A program made the translations under genes and the position numbers. A DNA stretch of 64,000 bases from Flavisolibacter ginsengisoli DSM 18119 (GTDB lineage: Bacteria > Bacteroidota > Bacteroidia > Chitinophagales > Chitinophagaceae). Every line of letters starts with the position of its first letter. The first letter of the stretch is position 1. Under the pieces are notes generated by a model. That model ran no database searches. It was given only the letters and a program-made list of their open reading frames with translations, and had not been told where the DNA came from. The DNA is taken from NCBI RefSeq assembly GCF_900129295.1, contig NZ_FQUU01000015.1:1-64000 (forward strand). Direction: 5' to 3'. This document shows, in pieces, positions 12,042 through 45,326 of this stretch.

Positions 12042-12174
12042 GTTTCTGGTTTATTGTTTTTTGTTTTTGGTTGCCTCGAAAGCTTACCTCTCTGAGAATA
12101 GCTGGCAATTCCAAAAATGCAAAGGTTTTAAGACCTTAGGACTAACAAAAAACAAGAAACTATAAACAATAAAC
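12042..12174. repeat. MITE-like unit with 31-bp terminal inverted repeats
   Basis: The left arm (12042-12072, starting GTTTCTGGTTTATTG) and the right arm (12144-12174, ending CTATAAACAATAAAC) match as inverted repeats at about 26 of 31 positions. They enclose about 71 bp of non-coding sequence. The tetranucleotide TAAT directly flanks both ends (12038-12041 and 12175-12178), as a target duplication would. The left copy overlaps the ftsX stop codon. The unit encodes nothing. A small non-autonomous element or a dispersed intergenic hairpin repeat is inferred. The AT-richness means part of the match could be chance. Confidence 0.5.
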
Positions 12175-12190
12175 TAATTATGTTTGTCCG

Positions 12191-22578: not shown

Positions 22579-25500
22579 TTATAATTTGACGATATTTTTT
22601 GTAACCAATACTTTATTGTTACTGTCTGTGATCTTGATAGAATAAACCTGCGAGGTCCATTTCCTTGTATCTATTTGCAATTCCGAAACTCCGGCACCCA
22701 GGTATTTTGTAGCCATATAAACTGCCTGGCCTTTCATATCTGTTACCTGGATATTCAGGTTGTCAGCTTTTTTCAGGGATACCTTAGCCATGATCACGGA
22801 ATGTACAGGGTTTGGATAGATGTTAACTACCAATGCCGCTGGATCTACATTAATCGTTACAATATTGCTGTAGCTAAATGTACCATTCAGGTCATACATT
22901 TTTAAGCGGTAGTACAAGATTGCTGCATTGAGCATACCTGCATCCTTATCAGTATAGCTGTATTTCTGCCCGTTGGTATTTCCTGCAGCTTCTGTTTTTC
23001 CAATTGCTGTGAAATTCCTTGCATCCGTACTTCTTTCAATAACGAAATGAGAAGTATTGACCTCGTTAGACGTCTCCCACTGCAACAATGTATTGTTGTC
23101 CTGCCATTGCCCTTTGAACGTTAAAAGGTTTAATGGAAGTGTAATAGCATTGGTATTTGCAAAATAGAAGGATGAAAAAGAACTGATATCTGCCTGCAAC
23201 ACATATCCACCACCAAAAGCCTCAGCATACTGTGGTGTAATGACGGTTGGCGAAGTTACATTCACCCATGTTGGTCCGCATGCATCACTGTTCTTGAAGA
23301 TACTCAGGTTAGAGATTGAATTCACAAGGCTTGACGCTCCCTGCGAATTAGATGCAGCCTTAATGGCATTCAATTCGCTGGTTTTAATATATAAACGAAT
23401 GCTAACCGGAGTGGCAGGGTTAGGCTGCACCTGTGGTGTAATAGTCATATTACGATCCAGGTAAAGACGCTTCTTTGCATTTTCCCTAACAGGGCCACTA
23501 TTGGTATAAAAAGAAGAAGTCACTGTACCCAGGTTATTACCATTGGCCTTGATCTCGGCCAGGATATTCCCGTCAGGTCCTGTAATTGGCACCCACAGAT
23601 TGTTATTGAAATTATCAATTGTTATGGTTGTTCCTGAAACACAGGCATTGTCTGTACCGGTTGTTACATCAACTGATGTAGGCAACAAACTTCTCCCTGT
23701 TGCATCAGGATTGTAACCAAGGAAGGTGTATTTCTGAACACAACCAGCACAAGTAGGGACAACCGGATTCGCAGCTCCGGGGCCTGAAGTGGTGGAATTA
23801 TTGTCCATGATCACATAGATATCCTTTCCATTAGGTGCAAATGCAAGATCCCTGAACCGGTTCTGACTTCCAAAATAACTAATGGTATCACTGGCAGAAT
23901 TGGTAGGTAAAGTACCATTTCCTGTGCCATCCATTTTAAGCCTTATAAGTCTTCCCCATTTTAATGAGGCTGCGATCAATGACTTCTTCCATCCCGGAAT
24001 CACTGTATTAGTATATAGATCTAACCCCGACCAGGCTTCTGTAGGCCAGTTGGCATTTCCTGAATTAGTTTGCCAAATGTTTAATACGGTAGCCTTAGGT
24101 GCTGCATAAGCGGAGAAAATAGGATCCTTGTAAAGTCCATTTCCACTGGCATCAATAGCAGCCTTATTCGCAGCTTCATCACCAATTGGAGGACAGGCTG
24201 AATTTCCGGAATTATCTGTAAAAGGTGCACCAGCAGATAAACTGGTATTGGTACTTGCTGTTGTCGTTCCATTATAGTTTCCATCCACGAAACCCTGTAT
24301 CAATGGATGTCCATAGTTTTTAAAGCCCTGGATGACATTTATTTCATCATCACTATATGGACCATGGGAAGCGCCATATAGAATATTGAGCGAAGAATCA
24401 TAAGCAAACCCCTGGTTATTGCGGATACCAGTACTATATACAGCACTTTGGACCCCCAATAATGTATTATAGGGATTATCATTAGGAATCCATCCATTGG
24501 CGCCTGCTTCACCATCCGAAACCAGGTTGAACCTTAAAATTTTTCCTTCGTAAGAATTAATTTTTTGCGCATTCTCAGGGCGGTCCCTGTTTTCAAACTG
24601 GCCCGCACCCATATCTCCCTGGGCATAGAATAAATAATAGGTGCCACCTTTGGTAACCGGCGCAATGATGATCCTTTGTGAATTATGGTCACTGCTTCCA
24701 GGAAGCGTATCACACAATACCACCGGTGATTCTAATTTATTAGTGGCACTGTTATAGGTAAACCGCACCAGTTTATTTCTGAAAAATATGCCAGTCTTTA
24801 CGGCTGTAGAACCACTAAGATATCTATGTACATAAGAAACATATACGTAGTCATTCAATCCCGTTCCATCCATGAATTTAGGATGAAGGGCAAGACCTGC
24901 CAGTCCACCCTGTGGCCATTTGATACTATTCCAGCTTGACATGTTTACTGCATTCAGGCTATCTGCAGGGGAAGGCAGAAAAGTGCTTCCTGTGGACAGG
25001 TCAAGTACTGTAGATTTAGCACCAGTATTTGGATCCATCCGGTATACTTTGTATCCACGTGATTCTGTTATCCATAATTTATCATCCTGTCCATAAGTAA
25101 TTTCCCAGGGATAACTAAGCACACCACTCCCCGACAGAATATTTTGTTTAAAGACTTCATTCATGCGTCCAGAACCAACAGTACTTGCACTAACAGCAGC
25201 CGGGCCGGTAACAGTGATAGTGAATGCTGAACCTGTTGAAGTACCGCCAATTGATCCGGCAGCTGATGAATATACTCTTATATAATAGGTGCTTCCCGGT
25301 GTTAATCCCAATGCTGTCATGCCGGAACTTCCACATGCTATTGACGTTAAAGATCCACAGCTACCAGAGAAAACCTGTATCATGGCACCTGAAGTAGTAA
25401 GATTGGAACCTACTGCACTTAAGGTGACAGTAGCACTGGTAGCTGTTGGTGTGAATGTAAACCATACATCATCATCCGGAGTACCTGAGCAAACAGTTGG

Positions 25501-26877
25501 TACACCACTGTCTGTAGCACCCCATACCGAAGATGGAGTTGCTGTACCTATTGAAAGAGCAGTAGCCAGGTTGCAATTATCATTTGCGGGAGGTGGTGTA
25601 GTGTGAGTTAGGCAAATATTAAAATTCGCCGTTCCGGATCCTGATGGATCGGTACTTACATTGGAAACCCTAACATAATATGTATTATTTATAGTTAATC
25701 CCGTTGCAATGGCAGTTGTAGATCCGCAAGCAATCGATACCAGGCTTCCACAAGTTCCATTATATATTTGAACCTCAGGATTGGTAATGGTAGATCCCAA
25801 AGCACTTAACGACACCGTTTCAGTAGTGTTCTGGGCAATAAATTTATACCATACGTCATAATGTGTTCCCGCTGATTCACAACCTGCTGGCAAACCACTC
25901 GTTGCAGTTGCACGGTCTAGCGTACTAGTAGTTGTAGTACAAGTTATATTTGAGGTCAATGATACAGCACCGGAACAATCATCATTGGCAGGCGGGGGTA
26001 TATGTGTTACACATATATCAAAAGTACCTGTACCGGATGCATAGCCATAGGGAGTTGCCAATACACTCGACACTCTAATATAATAGTTGGCGCCAACTGT
26101 TAAACCAGAAGCAGTGATCGCAGAGCTTCCACATTGCAGGGAATTTAGTGAGCCACATACCCCACTAAATAATTGTACTTCGGAAGTTGTGATTGCCGTA
26201 CCCAGGTTACTTATAGTTACTGTTTCTGTAGTTGCGGCAGCTACAAACTTGTACCAAACATCATAATGCGTATTTGCTGTGCATCCTGCCGGAACACTGC
26301 TACTCGGTGTTGCACCTGCTAACGTAGTAGAAGTTACAGTGCAGGAAGTATTTGAGCTTAGGGTAGTAGCCCCGCTGCAATCATCATTGGATAAAACAGA
26401 TGTATTATGTGTCAGGCAAATGGAAAATGACCACTTGCTTGTATTGCCTGTTGAAGGATTAGTAGTTGTATAAACCCTGATATAATAAGTCTTAGTGGTA
26501 TTTAAACCATATAAGGTAAGATCGGTTCCTGTATTTGCATAACCCAACGACGTACCATTACATGAACCATCAAATACTTCAATATAAGAGTTGGAGGTTG
26601 AAAGGTTCGTGGGATTCGAGTAAGAAACGGCAATAGTTTGGACCGTGGAGGCAGGGATAAATTGGAACCAAACATCATAAGCAGTGCCATTGGCACTGGC
26701 AACACCACTATTAGTTGCCTGGTATAAGGTACTAGTAGTATTACAAGCCCCATTTGATATTAAAGCAGGTGATGTTGCACTACAATCATCATTTCCTGGA
26801 GCCGCATGTAAGTAGGTTGAAAATGTACATAGTAATAAGATCAGGGAGATTTGTCGGACAGCAGTTAGACAGAACAT
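22579..26877 (-). CDS. Large T9SS protein: four N-terminal repeats plus a PQQ-type sugar dehydrogenase-like propeller
   Basis: A 1432-residue exported protein. After the signal segment (ISLILLLCTFSTYLHA) there are four ~130-residue repeats, at about 28-160, 164-292, 297-425 and 430-560. Three open with NDDCS-type sequence and the fourth with NDNCN. Each contains (Y/D)DVWxxF and ends in YYIRV-type strands, like pre-peptidase C-terminal-type beta domains. Residues about 575-1010 form a glucose/sorbosone dehydrogenase-like propeller (YPWEITYGQDDKLWITESRG, GLAGLALHPKF, DHNSQR). An FN3-like domain and a T9SS tail (NIYPNPVHSVIMAKV to NIVKL) close it. Surface sugar oxidation is inferred. No PQQ-binding residues were verified. 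Confidence 0.88.
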   Translation of the reverse strand: MFCLTAVRQISLILLLCTFSTYLHAAPGNDDCSATSPALISNGACNTTSTLYQATNSGVASANGTAYDVWFQFIPASTVQTIAVSYSNPTNLSTSNSYIEVFDGSCNGTSLGYANTGTDLTLYGLNTTKTYYIRVYTTTNPSTGNTSKWSFSICLTHNTSVLSNDDCSGATTLSSNTSCTVTSTTLAGATPSSSVPAGCTANTHYDVWYKFVAAATTETVTISNLGTAITTSEVQLFSGVCGSLNSLQCGSSAITASGLTVGANYYIRVSSVLATPYGYASGTGTFDICVTHIPPPANDDCSGAVSLTSNITCTTTTSTLDRATATSGLPAGCESAGTHYDVWYKFIAQNTTETVSLSALGSTITNPEVQIYNGTCGSLVSIACGSTTAIATGLTINNTYYVRVSNVSTDPSGSGTANFNICLTHTTPPPANDNCNLATALSIGTATPSSVWGATDSGVPTVCSGTPDDDVWFTFTPTATSATVTLSAVGSNLTTSGAMIQVFSGSCGSLTSIACGSSGMTALGLTPGSTYYIRVYSSAAGSIGGTSTGSAFTITVTGPAAVSASTVGSGRMNEVFKQNILSGSGVLSYPWEITYGQDDKLWITESRGYKVYRMDPNTGAKSTVLDLSTGSTFLPSPADSLNAVNMSSWNSIKWPQGGLAGLALHPKFMDGTGLNDYVYVSYVHRYLSGSTAVKTGIFFRNKLVRFTYNSATNKLESPVVLCDTLPGSSDHNSQRIIIAPVTKGGTYYLFYAQGDMGAGQFENRDRPENAQKINSYEGKILRFNLVSDGEAGANGWIPNDNPYNTLLGVQSAVYSTGIRNNQGFAYDSSLNILYGASHGPYSDDEINVIQGFKNYGHPLIQGFVDGNYNGTTTASTNTSLSAGAPFTDNSGNSACPPIGDEAANKAAIDASGNGLYKDPIFSAYAAPKATVLNIWQTNSGNANWPTEAWSGLDLYTNTVIPGWKKSLIAASLKWGRLIRLKMDGTGNGTLPTNSASDTISYFGSQNRFRDLAFAPNGKDIYVIMDNNSTTSGPGAANPVVPTCAGCVQKYTFLGYNPDATGRSLLPTSVDVTTGTDNACVSGTTITIDNFNNNLWVPITGPDGNILAEIKANGNNLGTVTSSFYTNSGPVRENAKKRLYLDRNMTITPQVQPNPATPVSIRLYIKTSELNAIKAASNSQGASSLVNSISNLSIFKNSDACGPTWVNVTSPTVITPQYAEAFGGGYVLQADISSFSSFYFANTNAITLPLNLLTFKGQWQDNNTLLQWETSNEVNTSHFVIERSTDARNFTAIGKTEAAGNTNGQKYSYTDKDAGMLNAAILYYRLKMYDLNGTFSYSNIVTINVDPAALVVNIYPNPVHSVIMAKVSLKKADNLNIQVTDMKGQAVYMATKYLGAGVSELQIDTRKWTSQVYSIKITDSNNKVLVTKNIVKL

Positions 26878-27109: not shown

Positions 27110-30100
27110 ATGAGAACGAACCCGACACTACGAACCCTTGTAATTTGTTTCCTGTTTTCTTTGCCTAAACTAGTTTTTTCACAGCCGACAAATGATTTAT
27201 GCGATAATGCAACTCCGCTATACTCATCTGTTACTTGCTCTACTATTACCGGAGATTTACAGGATGCAACAAGCACGGGATCACCCAATGGGGCCTGTGC
27301 TGCTTCAAGTCCCACAAACGACGTATGGTATGTTTTCACTGCTACTTCATCAAATGCAACTATAACAGTAAGCGGTATAGGAAGTAACCTTAAAAATAAT
27401 ACTACATTTATTGAATTATTCAGTGGGACATGCACCAGCTTAACATCAATAATTTGTCAGGATATTACAAGCCCCTTAATAAGGACAACACTTTCTCCAG
27501 GTTCCATTTATTATGTCCGTCTTTATGTTACCGGATCTACATCAGGTACTCCCGCTAATAAAAGAGGATTCAACATATGTTTACAAAGTTCTCCTAACGA
27601 TGAATCTATTTCAGCCATAAGTTTAACACCAAATATTTCTTGTACAAACACAGGGGGGTCACTATTACTTTCTACTATGAGCACTTCATTGCCAGCAGGG
27701 TGCCAGTCAGCAGGCAATCACTGGGATGTATGGTACAAATTTACTGCTGCTAATACAACAAGTACAGTTACCATTAGTAGTCAAGGGACAAATTTCACTT
27801 CTCCTGAAATTCAACTTTTCAGTGGGAGCCCAGGGTCTTTAACTTCTTTGCAATGTGGCACAACAACGCTAACTTCATCTTCATTAACCATAGGGACATC
27901 CTATTACATAAGAGTTTCTAATGTTGGCGCCTCAGCACCTTCTGCTACTGCTACTTTCAATATTTGCGTAACACACCCGCTCCCTCCGCCTTCCAATGAT
28001 AATTGCACGGGTGCAGTATCACTGATATCAAATACTACATGTTCCAATACTGTTACAAACCTGGACCGGGCAACTGCTTCATCTGGCTTACCTGTTGGCT
28101 GCGAATCAGCAGGCACACATTATGATGTCTGGTATAGTTTTGTAGCTAATAATAATTCTCATACCATCAGCTTATCTGGTTTATCAAACATTGCAACCCC
28201 CGAAATTCAATTGTATAGTGGCACCTGCGGAGCATTAACATCACTTCAATGTGGGACTACCTCCATAACCAATAATTCATTAACATCTGGTAATACATAT
28301 TATGTAAGGGTATCCAGCGTTGGCTCGCTGGCTGCAACTACTGGATTCAGTATTTGCGTAACTAATCCAGTTCCTCCTCCCGGCAATGATGATTGTAGCG
28401 GCGCAATAACATTAAATTCTAATACAACCTGTTCAAACACTTCAGGCACTTTGATTAGTGCTACAGCAAGTTCCGGTATTCCAATTGGTTGTGCATCTGC
28501 AGGAAGCCTTTATGATGTATGGTACAAATTTGTGGCAACCGGAACTGTTCAAAATGTTTCAGTAACTGGTTTGGGAGCGGGTATCACAAACCCAGAATTA
28601 CAAATCTTTAGTGGAACATGTGGCTCTTTAACCTCTCTTGCCTGTGGCACTACAAGTCTTGCCGTTCCAAATATCATTATAGGTGCTACCTATTATGTTC
28701 GTGTTTCCAATATTGGCAGTAGTCCATCTAGCGGAGGCAACTTTTCCATTTGCGTTACAGCTCCTGTTCAAGCCACCTATGACATCAGCCGGACTTATAT
28801 TAATGTAACAAAGGGTGCTACAGGAGGAACTGTAAACCCCGGTGATACGCTGGAAATGCGGGCCATCCTTTCTATAAGTTCTAAAACTTTAGACAGTTTA
28901 TCTTTTATTGATACCTTATATAACACTAAAGGCTTACGACTTGTTCCGGGCAGCCTTGCCTGGCGTACCAATGAAGGTAAGATCTACGGAAATGGGGCAT
29001 CTGCCTTTACGGATGCGCTGGATGCTGACCAGGGAACTGTTTACACCAACGGACTGGATACCATCATCAGGATCAATATTGGCGCTGGATCAAATGGCAC
29101 CACCAGGGGGCAATTGACGAGCACTTCCTATCCCCGTGTATTTGGAAGCCCATGCCTAATCATGGCTACCTACAGGGTTGTGGTATATGCCGGTTACAAT
29201 ACAAAGATCAACTTTAAAACAGGTGCCTTAACCTATAAAGACCAGGCAACAGGCATACTAACCAATGCCAGGTTCCCTGTAAATAACTTAATAGTTTACA
29301 ATAGCCCTGGTCTTTGTCCCAATGCAGTATCCGCAACTAATGCCCTTGGTGCCGAATCGAATGGTACCTTTGGAATCCCCAGTGGTGGAACACCTTTAGC
29401 CAGGAACAGGGGAACAACTCCATATATTGGTACAGGTTATACCTATAAACCATTTACTACCACCGGTGGACCAAATGACTACTTCTATGGTATAGCCAAT
29501 AATACAAGTTCTGCATTTACAACAATTAATACTTGGGGTAAGCCAGATGCCACGTATAGGGTCTTTAATTTGTGGGATATTACAGGTGACCATACAGGTG
29601 CCAGCAATCCAACAAGAGGTAACCCTGCGTGCGACACTACAAAACCTGTTAGCCCCACCAATCCTTGCGGCTACATGCTGATAATTAACTCGGCTTACAG
29701 AGCGGATACCGCGTTTACTTATACCGTAAACAACCTATGTCCTAATACCTACTACGAATTATCTGCCTGGTTCAAGAATATTTGTTACAAATGTGGTGCA
29801 GACTCACTTGGCCGATCTTCAACAACAGCGCTCTATATTCCTACTGCCCCTGGCGATTCATCAGGCGTAAGGCCTAACATTGCCTTTGACGTTAACGGTA
29901 GTGATTATTATACTACGGGTGATATTCGATATTCAGGCGTAACACCAACTGGCTCTGACTCTACCAACCAGTGGGTAAAACGCGGTTTTGTGTATTTAAC
30001 AGGGCCTACAGAAACATCTTTCCTTTTAACACTAAGAAACAATGCCCCTGGTGGTGGTGGTAATGACTGGGCTTTGGATGATATTGCTGTGAATACATGT

Positions 30101-31030
30101 CTACCCAATATGCGCTATTCACCATCATTGAATCCATCTGTCTGCCAGAATAATGCCATTGCTATTAATGATACTATCCGTTCCTACTTTAATACCTACC
30201 AGAATTATAAATGGCAAAGAAGTACAGATGCAGGTAATTCCTGGTCTGATATCAGCGGTGCCACAGGTACTTCCACTCCTTCATGGAATGGATCTGCATG
30301 GGAATATATTACCAGCTACACGGTTCCTGTATCGGCAACAACACTTTCCAATGCAGGTGATAAATACAGGGTGGTGGTTTCCACTACTGCAGGCAACCTT
30401 TCCAATGCAAGTTGCCAGGTAACAGATGGAGTGAGCCAGATAGCATTGAATGTAATGGATTGTGGCGTGGTATTAAATACAGACCTGCTATCTTTCAATG
30501 GAAAGCTTGCAAATAACCGTTCTAATCTTTTCTGGACCACTACACGTGAACATGAACCACTGCGCTACCACGTAGAGAAGAGTCTTGACGGTACCAACTT
30601 TACAAGAATAGGATCAATAAATGGCCGTAACAATACCAGTGCAGAAAATAACCATTATTCATTTACAGATTCCTCCATACTTGCAGGCAAAACTTATTAC
30701 AGGATCGTATTGAGTAACCCTGCCGGGAAGATGAAATATTCAAGGATCATTCAGTTGAACACATCTTCCCAGGAGGATTTCAAAGTAGGTGTCATGACCA
30801 ATCCTTTCCAAAAGGACCTTCAATTTGATGTAACATTAAATGAAGATGCCAGGATCAAGGTGTTCTTATTGAATGCATCTGGAGCACCAGTAAGACAAAA
30901 AGATCTTACAGCTTACAATGGAGTCAATTATTTTTCCTTCCAGGATCTTCAATCTTTGTCGCAAGGGATCTACATCCTGCAGGTACAGAACAAGGACCAG
31001 ACGATCACAAGAAAATTGATCAAGAAATAA
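27110..31030 (+). CDS. Large T9SS protein with four N-terminal repeats and adhesin-like middle
   Basis: A 1306-residue exported protein (signal MRTNPTLRTLVICFLFSLPKLVFSQ). Four repeats of about 125 residues (25-157, 163-290, 295-412, 420-545) are homologous to those of the divergent 1432-residue protein. The third repeats share LDRATASSGLP and CESAGTHYDVWY almost exactly. Next come a DUF11-like segment (about 550-700, NVTKGATGGTVNPGDTLEM), a carbohydrate-binding-like domain ending in NDWALDDIAVNTC (about 985-1000), and a T9SS tail ending in QTITRKLIKK. No catalytic site is recognised. It is probably a surface adhesin or binding protein partnering the divergent propeller protein. Confidence 0.85.
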   Translation: MRTNPTLRTLVICFLFSLPKLVFSQPTNDLCDNATPLYSSVTCSTITGDLQDATSTGSPNGACAASSPTNDVWYVFTATSSNATITVSGIGSNLKNNTTFIELFSGTCTSLTSIICQDITSPLIRTTLSPGSIYYVRLYVTGSTSGTPANKRGFNICLQSSPNDESISAISLTPNISCTNTGGSLLLSTMSTSLPAGCQSAGNHWDVWYKFTAANTTSTVTISSQGTNFTSPEIQLFSGSPGSLTSLQCGTTTLTSSSLTIGTSYYIRVSNVGASAPSATATFNICVTHPLPPPSNDNCTGAVSLISNTTCSNTVTNLDRATASSGLPVGCESAGTHYDVWYSFVANNNSHTISLSGLSNIATPEIQLYSGTCGALTSLQCGTTSITNNSLTSGNTYYVRVSSVGSLAATTGFSICVTNPVPPPGNDDCSGAITLNSNTTCSNTSGTLISATASSGIPIGCASAGSLYDVWYKFVATGTVQNVSVTGLGAGITNPELQIFSGTCGSLTSLACGTTSLAVPNIIIGATYYVRVSNIGSSPSSGGNFSICVTAPVQATYDISRTYINVTKGATGGTVNPGDTLEMRAILSISSKTLDSLSFIDTLYNTKGLRLVPGSLAWRTNEGKIYGNGASAFTDALDADQGTVYTNGLDTIIRINIGAGSNGTTRGQLTSTSYPRVFGSPCLIMATYRVVVYAGYNTKINFKTGALTYKDQATGILTNARFPVNNLIVYNSPGLCPNAVSATNALGAESNGTFGIPSGGTPLARNRGTTPYIGTGYTYKPFTTTGGPNDYFYGIANNTSSAFTTINTWGKPDATYRVFNLWDITGDHTGASNPTRGNPACDTTKPVSPTNPCGYMLIINSAYRADTAFTYTVNNLCPNTYYELSAWFKNICYKCGADSLGRSSTTALYIPTAPGDSSGVRPNIAFDVNGSDYYTTGDIRYSGVTPTGSDSTNQWVKRGFVYLTGPTETSFLLTLRNNAPGGGGNDWALDDIAVNTCLPNMRYSPSLNPSVCQNNAIAINDTIRSYFNTYQNYKWQRSTDAGNSWSDISGATGTSTPSWNGSAWEYITSYTVPVSATTLSNAGDKYRVVVSTTAGNLSNASCQVTDGVSQIALNVMDCGVVLNTDLLSFNGKLANNRSNLFWTTTREHEPLRYHVEKSLDGTNFTRIGSINGRNNTSAENNHYSFTDSSILAGKTYYRIVLSNPAGKMKYSRIIQLNTSSQEDFKVGVMTNPFQKDLQFDVTLNEDARIKVFLLNASGAPVRQKDLTAYNGVNYFSFQDLQSLSQGIYILQVQNKDQTITRKLIKK

Positions 31031-31080: not shown

Positions 31081-31481
31081 ATGAGTATTAAGTTCCTGAA
31101 GTATAAAATAAAAGTGATAAAACTTTAATAATAGTACTGCCTGCAATTGACCACCTTCTGACTTGCCTGTCCCGACGAATGGCGGGATCATTCTGAGGAA
31201 CGAAGAATCTGTTGTAACCACATAGGCGACCATTGTACTATTGAAGCCTCTTCAACCTAATTAAAAAAGAGTAAACTGTCCTATTTTAAGATGGCTCAAT
31301 AGTCTTACAGGTATGATATCCTTTTCTAATGCAGTTCAAAGATCCCGCTACAGCGGGATGACAGAGCATCAGGGTTTATACTGTGCAACCATACCTGGTG
31401 GTAAAAGCATAAGCGGCCATCAAAACAATAAATCCTCTTCAACTTAAACAAGAAATGAATTATTGTGGTTAACCAGGAGCC

Positions 31482-31574
31482 CTTTGCGAATTCTTTGCGT
31501 GGGTTCTCTCTTTGCAAACTTTGCGATACTCAGTAACGCAAAGAGTGCAAAGATGTTCGCAAAGGATCGCAAAG
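31482..31574. repeat. Symmetric inverted array of CTTTGCG heptamers
   Basis: CTTTGCG or CTTTGCA starts at 31482, 31493, 31510 and 31519. CGCAAAG or TGCAAAG starts at 31537, 31546, 31558 and 31568. The four-plus-four arrangement is symmetric around about 31530 and could extrude as a cruciform or an RNA hairpin with interrupted stems. Function is unknown. Confidence 0.8.
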
Positions 31575-31625
31575 ATGAATACCAATAAAACATGTCTGCA
31601 CTCAGTAGTACCTTTCAGTCCTAAG

Positions 31626-31659
31626 AAACTACAAACTACACACTACAAACTACAAACTT
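31626..31659. repeat. Tandem AAACTAC heptamer repeat
   Basis: Four consecutive 7-bp units (AAACTAC, AAACTAC, ACACTAC, AAACTAC) plus a partial fifth lie just beyond the stop codon of the minus-strand gene at 31662. Confidence 0.75.
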
Positions 31660-31661
31660 CC

Positions 31662-32264
31662 TTAAACAGCATGTTTAAGGAGAAATATTGGAATTTGGTA
31701 ATCCGCTGGAAAGTTTCCTTCGAACTTTATCTTCCATTCATAATCCTCCATATATAGTTGAAAGTACTCTGTGTCTTCAGCAGTAAGTGGTGCAGTTACT
31801 TTGACCAGGAGTTTATTCTTCATCTTCTTTACCTTTTCTTTCTTTGGCTCTTGCAGCCTTGCCTCCAGTTCCTGTTCAAAGGAAGAAAGAAGTAGGGTAA
31901 ACTGCTCCTGGGTTAAAGAGATACGCTTTTGCTCTGAAAGGAAATTGTATAGAGCAGTAAATACACCCCCTTTTTCCATTCCCTGCTTTAAACCAACAAT
32001 AGCTATGGTCCTTACCTGTTTAAACAAATGCCTGTATCTTCTTTTGGTGGGAACAAAGCGGTAGATGATGGAAGACATAATATTGCCTGTTCCAAACCTC
32101 TGAGCGCTTCTCCTGCTTCCTTCAAACGCAGGGTCCTTCCAGAAGCGCCTGGAGTCCACTCCCGGAAGCATTCTTACCAGGTAGCCCCACAACTGATCAT
32201 AATAAAAGTTGGTGTCACCATCCACTGTACCTGTAGCCTTAATGTATCCTGTTTGCTTAGCCAT
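31662..32264 (-). CDS. Orphan 200-residue protein of a paralogous Bacteroidota family, function unknown
   Basis: A 200-residue basic soluble protein with no signal peptide. The opening MAKQTGYIKATGTVDGDTNF is followed by LWGYLVRMLPGVDSRRFWKD, then DPAFEGSRRSAQRFG and SSIIYRFVPTKRRYRHLF. From memory, proteins with this G-x-I-K start and DPAF-x(3)-R-x(3)-FG core recur in several copies per genome in Chitinophagaceae and are annotated only as hypothetical. The C-terminal half (about 120-200) has an acidic/basic helical linker (EARLQEPKKEKVKKMKNK) and a beta-rich end. It is isolated on both sides by short repeats. No function is known, and an association with mobile or repeat DNA is inference. 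Confidence 0.7.
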   Translation of the reverse strand: MAKQTGYIKATGTVDGDTNFYYDQLWGYLVRMLPGVDSRRFWKDPAFEGSRRSAQRFGTGNIMSSIIYRFVPTKRRYRHLFKQVRTIAIVGLKQGMEKGGVFTALYNFLSEQKRISLTQEQFTLLLSSFEQELEARLQEPKKEKVKKMKNKLLVKVTAPLTAEDTEYFQLYMEDYEWKIKFEGNFPADYQIPIFLLKHAV

Positions 32265-32329
32265 ATTATATTAGATTTTATAACTGCAAGATTTTGAAAA
32301 TCCATGTCAGTTCAAAACCACCATGTCCG

Positions 32330-32381
32330 TTTTGGCCGCTTTTGGCCGATATGGCCGGAAATGACCGCTTTTGGCCGCTGG
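32330..32381. repeat. Decamer-spaced TTTGGCCG-type repeats
   Basis: Five related units (TTTGGCCGCT, TTTGGCCGAT, ATGGCCGGAA, ATGACCGCTT, TTGGCCGCTG) follow each other at about one helical turn of DNA. The regular 10-bp spacing would put every unit on the same helix face. Confidence 0.7.
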
Positions 32382-32389
32382 AAAAGAGA

Positions 32390-32464
32390 GTTGAAAAGTT
32401 GAAAGGTTAACAGGTTAGAAAGTTGAGTGGGAGTTGACAGGTTAACAGGTTGAAAAGTTGATAA
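32390..32464. repeat. Tandem octamer array, GTTGAAAA type
   Basis: About nine units of 8 bp starting GTTRA (GTTGAAAA, GTTGAAAG, GTTAACAG, GTTAGAAA and so on) are interrupted once by GGA. GTTAACAG and GTTGAAAA recur exactly. The units are too short, and lack spacers, for a CRISPR. Confidence 0.75.
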
Positions 32465-32608
32465 GGAATAGTCCTAACTTCAACTCCTCAATAATCCTTT
32501 AAATCCTGCTAATCATAGTTCTTTCCTTCATCATTCGATATTCCTTGTTCATCTGTTCGATATTCCCCTTCTTCTTCCTACCTAAGGCATGGGAAAGCCC
32601 TACTAACA

Positions 32609-32645
32609 GTATAGATACTGCATGATGATCACGCAGTATCTATAC
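32609..32645. repeat. Long perfect hairpin, 13-bp stem
   Basis: GTATAGATACTGC at 32609-32621 and its exact complement GCAGTATCTATAC at 32633-32645 enclose an 11-base loop. No T-run follows on either strand, so it is not a classical terminator. It could be a protein-binding dyad, an RNA structure or an element end. Confidence 0.8.
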
Positions 32646-32936
32646 CGTAGCTATATAGTTGATTGGGAGTAGGCCGGGAGTTGATATTAGCCAGGCCAAC
32701 AGCAGGGTCCAGGTAAAACCAAGTATCTACTATGGAAGACTTAAATACTGGCTGCATTATTAAAGAAGTGTATTCCTTTACAACATCAAAATGAGCAATT
32801 GGGTTGCTATGCTTTCAACTTGTTAATGGGTCCTTTTCTCAATCTCTGCCATTTTAGTTATTTACTTTTAAGTTTCACTTTACCGTTCTTCCAGTTAAGT
32901 TTCTTACTATTTTCATTTATTTGCTGAAATTTGGAT

Positions 32937-34025
32937 ATGAATAAACCGGTAATTGGCATTTCCTGCGGTGATTTAAATGGCATTGGTACAGAGCTGATCA
33001 TAAAGACATTTTCCGATCACCGGATATTAGAGCATTGTACACCTGTGATATTTGGATCGAATAAACTGATCAACTTTTATAAGAAATCAGTACCTGATGC
33101 TCATTTCAACTACCAGAGCATCAAGGACTTCAGCAAGGTGAATCCAAAACAGATCAATGTCTATAACTGCTGGGAGGAAGAACTGGCTATCACGCCCGGC
33201 CAGTTATCTGATATGGGCGGCAAGTATGCTGTCAAGTCTTTGCTGGCAGCTGCCGATGCACTGCACCAGGGACATATCCAGGGCCTGGTAACTGCTCCTA
33301 TTCATAAAAAGAATGTACAATCAGAAGAATTCAGGTTTACCGGGCATACCCCTTTTCTTCAGGCAGTGGCAGGGGCTAAAGATGTATTGATGCTGTTATA
33401 TGCTACAGACATAAGGGTAGCCTTGGTAACAGAACATATTCCTGTGAAAGAAATTGCCAATCAAATTACTAAACCAGCGATTTTATCTAAAATAAACCTG
33501 TTGCATGCCAGCCTGCGAAAGGATTTTGGCATTGACAAGCCCAAAATAGCGGTGCTTGGCCTGAACCCACATGCGGGAGATGAGGGATTGATTGGTAACG
33601 AGGAAGAACAGATCATCAAACCGGCCATCAAGGAAGCAAAGCAGGACAAACTGGTTTTTGGACCTTATAGTGCTGATGCGTTCTTCGCCCGGAGAAGCTA
33701 TTTGCAATTTGATGCGGTGCTGGCCATGTACCACGACCAGGGGCTGATACCTTTTAAGACCATTGCAGTAGGAGAAGGTGTGAATTACACCGCCGGCCTG
33801 CCATTTGTGCGCACCTCACCTGATCATGGGACAGCTTTTGATATTGCAGGAAAGAATTTGGCAGATGCAGGATCTTTCACAACCGCTGTTTTTGAATGCC
33901 TGGATATTATTAACCGCCGTAATGAATATGAAGAGCGCAATCGCAACCCGCTGCGAAAAATTACTGCCGAAGTATTAAAGAATGTGGAAGATGAGCGCAT
34001 TGATGATACAATTGATAAGCGATGA
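32937..34025 (+). CDS. pdxA: 4-hydroxythreonine-4-phosphate dehydrogenase PdxA
   Basis: A 362-residue NAD-dependent enzyme of pyridoxal-phosphate synthesis (DXP-dependent route). It oxidises 4-phosphohydroxy-L-threonine. The start is the ATG at 32937 (MNKPVIGISCGDLNGIGTEL), not the upstream TTG. The metal-binding His residues are visible in FTGHTPFL, GLNPHAGDEG and MYHDQGLIPFK. The conserved VRTSPDHGTAFDIAG segment is present near the C-terminus. Length is a little over the ~330 typical because of a charged tail (NRRNEYEERNRNPLRK). It is monocistronic, with its own terminator. Confidence 0.95.
   Translation: MNKPVIGISCGDLNGIGTELIIKTFSDHRILEHCTPVIFGSNKLINFYKKSVPDAHFNYQSIKDFSKVNPKQINVYNCWEEELAITPGQLSDMGGKYAVKSLLAAADALHQGHIQGLVTAPIHKKNVQSEEFRFTGHTPFLQAVAGAKDVLMLLYATDIRVALVTEHIPVKEIANQITKPAILSKINLLHASLRKDFGIDKPKIAVLGLNPHAGDEGLIGNEEEQIIKPAIKEAKQDKLVFGPYSADAFFARRSYLQFDAVLAMYHDQGLIPFKTIAVGEGVNYTAGLPFVRTSPDHGTAFDIAGKNLADAGSFTTAVFECLDIINRRNEYEERNRNPLRKITAEVLKNVEDERIDDTIDKR

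Positions 34026-45032: not shown

Positions 45033-45326
<294 letters not shown>

Follow-up and report, generated by a model that had tools for sequence, protein, structure and literature searches.

A putative co-spreading unit of a small orphan gene and an array of 11-bp words in Bacteroidota

In the genome of Flavisolibacter ginsengisoli DSM 18119 the gene for a small orphan protein and an upstream array of 11-bp words look, judging by the sequences compared here, like one unit whose parts spread together. Our main reading, which we hold at a probability of about 40%, is that they form an array-gene unit resembling the REP/RAYT systems but with an unrelated protein, in which the array is a putative binding site that would also be the recognition end for spread.

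The window, a stretch of 64,000 nucleotides from this genome, contains a 1909-bp intergenic island between a large ORF (27110-31030, plus strand) and pdxA (32940-34025, plus strand), the product of which is PdxA (Pfam E 1.6e-108). According to the ORF list, the sole family gene of the unit lies on the minus strand (32264 to 31662) and encodes a short-form protein of 200 aa without a known domain. The initial annotation had described a 200-residue ORF at 31662-32264, enclosed by several classes of short repeats. The ORF is there, on the minus strand, and the repeat clusters were found at the positions given for them. The stem-loop upstream of the gene (32606-32648, TATAGATACTGCRTG / CACGCAGTATCTATA) had been described as 13 bp in length, whereas its arms are in fact 21 bp long and 90% complementary. 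It forms the hairpin core of an 11-bp-periodic stretch at 32535-32684 (z 6.9 vs 4.24 for the 99th percentile of the null, which was obtained from 1000 random 500-bp pieces of the window). Octamer filler of the GTTGAAAA type (32389-32466), which is not universal, separates the array from a decamer block with a Tandem Repeats Finder period of 10 (32330-32380; TTTTGGCCGC, gene-forward GGCCAAAAGCGG). The AT-rich segment next to the gene start (32265-32329, minus strand) lies inside an alignment block conserved among copies and is the presumed promoter and leader. Two further non-universal arrays, each found in 7 of the 22 copies, follow the gene: AAACTAC heptamers directly 3' of it (31626-31658, detected by Tandem Repeats Finder) and a cluster of inverted CTTTGCG heptamers (31482-31577). 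A downstream segment with the GGGATGACAG hairpin (31188-31363) lies outside the common unit and is shared with some sister units (83.7% identity over 178 bp to E07 and 82.3% over 96 bp to E02).

The periodicity scores and motif counts were obtained with our own scripts. CTTTGCG occurs 11 times in the window (5.66 expected; 7 of 100 shuffles reach 11), and 6 of these copies fall within 31482-31574. Three of the 10 AAACTAC copies are at 31626-31653 and the total is not above chance (8.74 expected); it is the tandem placement, not the total count, that is the notable feature. All three exact window copies of the decamer TTTTGGCCG lie at 32330-32377, while at one mismatch 13 copies were counted vs 16.7 expected, and for this word the clustering alone is notable. 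The GTTGAAAA-type repeats with one mismatch numbered 14 vs 7.2 expected (2 of 100 shuffles reach 14), and GGGATGACAG has a single copy, at 31355. An exact 18-mer of the AAACTAC array was located at eight places in the genome, seven of them behind family copies, and relaxed matches to the heptamer were also found elsewhere in the genome. The statement that the rest of the window is free of such arrays was nearly correct: Tandem Repeats Finder placed three arrays within 31081-32936, and the statement fails at 12144-12176 and 45186-45233, where two further short tandem arrays were reported. The two neighbouring large ORFs 22579-26877 and 27110-31030 contain repeated segments that resemble each other.

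The window protein matched 24 places in its own genome (G000), which correspond to 23 family loci. The short-form loci, designated E01-E22 and oriented gene-forward for tabulation, comprise 21 short forms and one remnant, and the remaining locus is a 251-aa long form on contig C53. Fifteen loci (E01-E15) are 68-100% identical to the window protein, E15 matching from residue 17 only, and six (E16-E21) are 35-42% identical, E21 being split into two matches; the remnant E22 has a large internal deletion. E01-E15 and E22 are hereafter group 1 (16 copies) and the six further copies group 2. The expectation of a multicopy family with a G-x-I-K start and a DPAF-x(3)-R core was borne out. Of 294 genomes from the taxonomic family, 104 contained the protein family according to a profile search in which up to 9 candidates were scored per genome; they represent 50 of 101 genera. 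Long forms of 251 aa, examined as the best 80 of 468 confirmed, occur in Chitinophaga, Lacibacter, Flavobacterium, Cytophagales, Saprospiraceae and others.

No Pfam or NCBIfam family was assigned to the window protein at cut-off, PHROGs gave nothing below E 0.1, and 12 other members tested were likewise without a Pfam family at cut-off. Domain searches recognised no transposase, nuclease, Rep, ribbon-helix-helix or DNA-binding domain in the family protein. In every group, the first 100 aa have a median pI of 9.4-10.5. Among 14 intact 200-aa copies (91 pairs, calculated with our own Nei-Gojobori script) the median dN/dS was 0.19 (range 0.09-0.26), indicating purifying selection, and the proteins are maintained; the smallest dS was 0.23, and group 1 is therefore old and was not copied very recently. 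The AlphaFold model of the window protein was poor (pLDDT 42), and that of the long form (pLDDT 75) has a C-terminal beta-sandwich. A C2-like fold for the long form was considered and not used as evidence (Foldseek best E 1.4e-3, highest listed TM 0.44). The PDB sequence search returned no match for the long-form profile and a best E of 0.03 for the short-form profile. We found no phage match for the family, no viral contig for the long form and one plasmid record, and a phage or plasmid origin was rejected on these grounds. A role in defence was also dismissed, the PADLOC matches being weak (best E 0.007). Searches of one open-access library returned no paper on the family or its arrays.

The flanks of the family copies were then compared, as the initial annotation had proposed, and the hairpin repeat was present upstream of all 22 short-form loci, with the arm starting 175-429 bp before the ATG. 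The idea of a single wall of six repeat classes did not survive this comparison, since only the stem-loop is universal and the others occur at 4 to 14 of the 22 loci: the decamer block at 14 (14 of the 16 group-1 copies), GTAGTTTGTAG, the T/G-rich array and the CTTTGCG cluster at 7 each, and the octamer and the GGGAT-type hairpin at 4 each, two loci in this census having less than 350 bp of downstream DNA (E02 309, E12 115). The proposal that gene and repeats form a unit is accordingly supported for the hairpin and not supported for the octamer, the heptamer, CTTTGCG and GGGATGACAG (4-7 of 22). In pairwise alignments the copies share the hairpin block and a second block, which starts at roughly -25 to -125 and includes the gene. 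The filler between these blocks is often unlike, and in some pairs both blocks are joined. Similarity ceases close to the stop codon or as much as some 300 bp beyond it, and the DNA outside the aligned units is unrelated apart from scattered repeats. These alignments and the repeat census indicate that the common unit consists of array, variable filler, promoter region and gene, and that the downstream walls are optional. The pair E17/E21 is 95.6% identical from -255 to just beyond the stop codon, with unrelated flanks; inspection by eye revealed no terminal repeats or target duplications at the ends of E17/E21 or of the long units. A related decamer pattern was present in 6 of 78 long forms elsewhere vs 2 of 78 downstream controls. 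As a separate observation, an IS110-family element (Transposase_20, E 1e-18 in the E08 piece) lies downstream of the gene in E08 (L030), E22 (L022) and E11 (L035), where it starts immediately behind CTTTGCG or CTTAGCG. At its end the element has AAGGTATAGATACTGCC, which is identical to a hairpin arm over 16 nt.

Around the stem-loop, which occupies the centre, extends an array of 11-bp words. The stem-loop pattern TATRGATACTSCGTG, searched with one mismatch, gave 44 + 40 matches in the genome vs 1 + 0 for the reversed control. We grouped the matches into 46 sites, of which 22 accompany family genes and the other 24 are solo, beside unrelated genes. Equal occurrence beside unrelated genes had been named in advance as evidence against a unit, and the hairpin goes halfway towards it, with 24 of 46 hairpins being solo there. 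The upstream periodicity exceeded the 99th percentile of the null at all 22 short-form loci of G000, and direct autocorrelation of the 24 solo arrays gave a mean z of 4.8, 3.7 and 2.4 at lags of 11, 22 and 33. Arm position 10 was G-C in 23 and C-G in 20 of the 43 hairpins analysed, three of the 46 (E17, E21 and L064, two of them group-2) having been left out as too degraded. By group, it was G in 16 of 16 group-1 hairpins and C in 4 of 4 analysed group-2 hairpins, although related copies are not independent and the paired change may therefore be a single lineage-wide double event. Across 17 other genomes of the genus the pattern gave only four single matches. Over 125 bp, L064, one of the solo arrays, shares 86% identity with those of units E17 and E21, and this resemblance suggests that arrays also spread alone. 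The possibility that solo arrays are decayed gene units was not supported, since tblastn gave one marginal match (L074, E 0.007) in the 24 solos of G000 and none in 40 of G015. Rfam reported nothing at the gathering threshold in ten array loci; the below-threshold matches in the window were weak and taken as chance, and an RNA family was discarded. The window genome also contains, at L091 (C10:48190), a RAYT-like Y1 transposase gene that has palindromes of its own, gtccctacgggacat and gtacctacggcacg, on its flanks, and this locus resembles an insert behind unit E11. A RAYT as maker of the hairpins was not supported, four tested array words (up to 2 mismatches) being absent from the five Y1 loci of G000 and the RAYT locus having other palindromes.

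Occupied and empty sites could be compared, as had been suggested, because the same-genus genome G007 shows an empty site. This genome has no family match. Its pdxA is preceded, at a distance of about 350 bp, by the end of an ORF resembling the left neighbour of the window unit (211 of 384 aligned columns identical), and neither family gene nor array is present at this site. At 13 other pdxA loci the upstream ORFs are different, as judged by their first residues, and there is no array (highest z 3.5). Gain of the unit in the window lineage is likely and falls short of proof, because the intergenic sequence of G007 has diverged too far for the junctions to be located.

Arrays were also present in other genomes. 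Upstream periodicity above the 99th percentile of the null was detected for 24 of 33 short forms of five other genomes vs 1 of 78 downstream controls; L152 and L160 (start not located) were left out of the short-form sets, as were L145-L147, L154 and L157, which are long forms from G094 and G061. G015, a genome of the same genus in one contig, has 21 family matches, and the 20 that were fetched fall into three subfamilies, with periodicity above the null in 6 of 6 copies of subfamily A, 0 of 3 of B and 10 of 11 of C. The corresponding values were 6 of 8 for G061, G105 and G154 together, 2 of 5 for G094 and 14 of 78 for the long forms. The six subfamily A copies have TTACTCCGTAT upstream, repeated at 22 bp, and this word gave 61 + 63 matches genome-wide in G015 vs 14 + 16 in the control. 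Its exact matches form 48 clusters, 6 at family genes and 42 elsewhere. At least two words, all spaced 22 or 44 bp, were present in 37 of 40 fetched gene-free clusters, and one single-word cluster, L179, lies inside a coding ORF. The 40 stretches without a family gene had a mean autocorrelation z of 4.1, 7.0 and 3.2 at lags of 11, 22 and 33. The word TACTCCGT is common to G015 and the hairpin core of G000. In subfamily C (L134-L144) the array precedes the same gene and promoter in either orientation, with 4 copies one way round and 6 the other, and in L139 it is farther out from the gene. Dispersed words of the GCTTGATCYAT type with 11-bp spacing gave, with as many as 3 mismatches allowed, 67 matches in G061 (1 in the control) and 34 in G154 (0 in the control), some of them upstream of family genes; in G094 such words gave 2 matches, and dispersal there is not supported. 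We also considered a role of the arrays as chromosome organisers and rejected it: for 47 array positions in G015 the comparison with a uniform distribution gave a KS p of 0.29, and the CV of the gaps was 0.82 vs 0.97 for random placement (p 0.12).

The long forms belong to a larger module, which was analysed in 78 loci (two of the best 80 of the 468 confirmed were dropped for short flanks). A divergent ORF of 59-71 aa lies upstream in 61 of these 78 loci; in the controls of the motif test its motif was found in none of the 78 when the opposite strand was read, and in 0 of 78 and 1 of 78 downstream. This mini-ORF was present in 0 of 55 short-form loci and 0 of 5 long forms of G094 and G061. Three examples gave weak helix-turn-helix matches below the Pfam cut-offs and PHROGs matches to a Cox-like excisionase (E 0.002-0.07). 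An 11-bp word pair occurs upstream in 39 of 78 long forms and downstream in none of the 78. In Paraflavisolibacter caeni a 2.4-kb long-form unit common to two loci starts at an 11-bp array of this kind, and a long-form protein of this species is identical to one in G005. Long-form genes were also noticed in within-genome duplications of about 1.7-2.6 kb (L235, L254, L252, L266, L284, L255 and L267), some of which reach the end of the fetched DNA. The long form of the window genome (L023, contig C53; features at 121-514 and 1101-1769) encodes 251 aa, is followed by two small hydrophobic ORFs and has an upstream decamer block of the kind seen in the window unit; neither 11-bp periodicity (z 2.0) nor a match to the mini-ORF was detected there. 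We infer that the window unit is a reduced derivative of the long-form module. The motifs of the two small hydrophobic ORFs were each seen downstream in 12 of 80 long-form loci. Two further features of long-form upstream regions were recorded: GTTGCAA or TTGCAAC in 39 of 78, and a self-complementary GTTGCAAC between short inverted repeats, often at -52 to -66 before the ATG and mostly in Flavobacterium (for example L225, L230 and L247). This conserved GTTGCAAC element is possibly a leader hairpin or operator.

If the gene and the array indeed form a REP/RAYT-like unit, the array could act as a cooperative protein-binding array with one site per helical turn, an arrangement suggesting that a protein polymer, or subunits in a row, would occupy one face of the DNA. 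The reader of the array would be a factor co-evolving with it, most probably the conserved and very basic N-terminal part of the family protein; an alternative reader, for the long-form module, could be the helix-turn-helix-like mini-protein encoded divergently there. The array would double as operator and recognition end, the latter being suggested by the fact that duplicated units have it at their 5' end. Both units and bare arrays of about 125 bp would be copied to new intergenic sites, as are REP sequences with their cognate protein. Because no recombinase was recognised in the unit, an enzyme acting in trans or recombination between arrays would be needed. Several observations count against this reading: no DNA-binding domain was recognised in the family protein, the model of which is poor; the mini-ORF was found at 0 of 60 loci when the 55 short forms and the five long forms of G094 and G061 are taken together; the 24 solo arrays slightly outnumber the 22 gene-linked ones; and some copies have no array above the null (3 of 3 in G015 subfamily B, 3 of 5 in G094, 2 of 8 in G061, G105 and G154, and 64 of 78 long forms). 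The possibly single origin of the paired arm change, the age of the group-1 copies and the failure to see terminal repeats or target duplications by eye also weigh against it. A broader proposal, which is tentative and which we would not yet call probable, is that Bacteroidota harbour a transposase-less dispersed element in which a small basic protein and an array of 11-bp turns co-spread and co-drift with lineage-specific words, and that it derives from a module of mini-HTH gene, array and 251-aa gene, in some cases with two small membrane proteins.

The arrays might instead be regulatory sites of a host-wide DNA-binding protein (a nucleoid organiser or global regulator), those at family genes serving as operators and the solo ones as further targets, with no mobility beyond gene duplication. 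We consider this rather unlikely. Such regulation would fit the location of the arrays upstream of a promoter-like region beside the ATG, the long-form arrays in or near the gap between the gene and the divergent mini-HTH-like gene, and the purifying selection on the copies. The distance to the ATG, however, varies from 175 to 429 bp, the arrays of G015 subfamily C stand upstream in both orientations, and the words differ among genomes of one genus. The surroundings of the 40 fetched G015 arrays, classified with mechanical ORF calls, point both ways: 19 lie between like-oriented genes and 6 between divergent ones, as a regulator would allow, whereas 15 lie between convergent genes, unlike operators.

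Dispersal could also have been passive, an explanation that we regard as unlikely. In this case an unrelated transposase, a RAYT or another enzyme, would move REP-like palindromes, and the orphan gene would hitch-hike through array recombination. A 125-bp module is common to solo and gene-linked arrays, and Y1_Tnp matches exist in both genomes, 5 in G000 (4 over cut-off) and 3 in G015. A passage of PMC6006769 describes the structures flanking Bacteroidetes tnpA_REP genes of subclass 2.6 as atypical and as having further copies at other genomic places, and we counted these flanks in favour of passive dispersal. None of the five G000 Y1_Tnp loci, however, carries any of four tested array words (up to 2 mismatches), two of the three G015 Y1 loci have one 2-mismatch 12-mer match and the third none, and the strong RAYT locus bears other palindromes. 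Hitch-hiking does not predict the 5'-side array found at every G000 short-form gene. It is far less probable that the units are relics of small iteron-type replicons that integrated repeatedly, in which the array would represent the iterons and be followed by a DnaA box, an AT-rich stretch and a rep-like gene. This idea draws on the exact 22-bp spacing in G015 and on TTATNCACA, the DnaA box, which was found upstream in 19 of 20 G015 copies (0.24 expected) and in 3 of 6 group-2 copies of G000 (0.08 expected), and in 0 of 40 G015 solos and 2 of 23 G000 solos. The same box was absent from all 16 group-1 copies and all 78 long forms and was present in 2 of the 13 remaining short forms, and the family has no Rep domain, no phage match and one plasmid record.

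The putative co-spreading unit ties a specific DNA element to a widespread Bacteroidota family without a model in the searched family libraries, and REP-like dispersed palindromes gain a possible cognate gene unrelated to RAYT transposases. In addition, many natural array-protein pairs, differing in words and subfamilies, are available for the question of array binding.

Among known systems, the IS110 elements, other insertion sequences and MITEs are also dispersed, as are the family units, including the internally deleted E22. They differ in that the family unit contains no transposase, that inspection of its ends by eye showed neither terminal repeats nor target duplications, and that the 14 copies compared are under strong purifying selection. 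Iteron origins resemble the G015 copies in their 22-bp repeats, DnaA box, AT-rich stretch and gene, whereas the family lacks a Rep domain, is not on plasmids apart from one record, and lacks the box in most other copies. In plasmid R1 each parC repeat measures 11 bp. In ParR-parC and other centromere-like plasmid arrays, as in our units, repeats spaced by about one turn of the helix precede the gene of a small protein. In contrast to these, the family unit is chromosomal, has tens of copies and is without a ParM/ParA partner, a filament NTPase or a second gene; unlike in ParMRC and TubZRC, no ribbon-helix-helix or winged-helix domain was detected in the family protein. CGTC-tagged palindromes occur in Bacteroidetes among other phyla, according to a passage of PMC3733652. 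Compared with REP/RAYT, the family protein has no Y1/HUH domain, its gene is multicopy (21 short forms and a remnant), its palindrome is a stack of 11-bp words, and the array stands on one side of the gene only. Both kinds of system consist of dispersed intergenic palindromes of which a subset lies next to a cognate gene; palindrome and gene of the window unit vary together, and solo copies (24 of 46) exist. The REP/RAYT systems are thus nearest to the unit in logic, not in protein.
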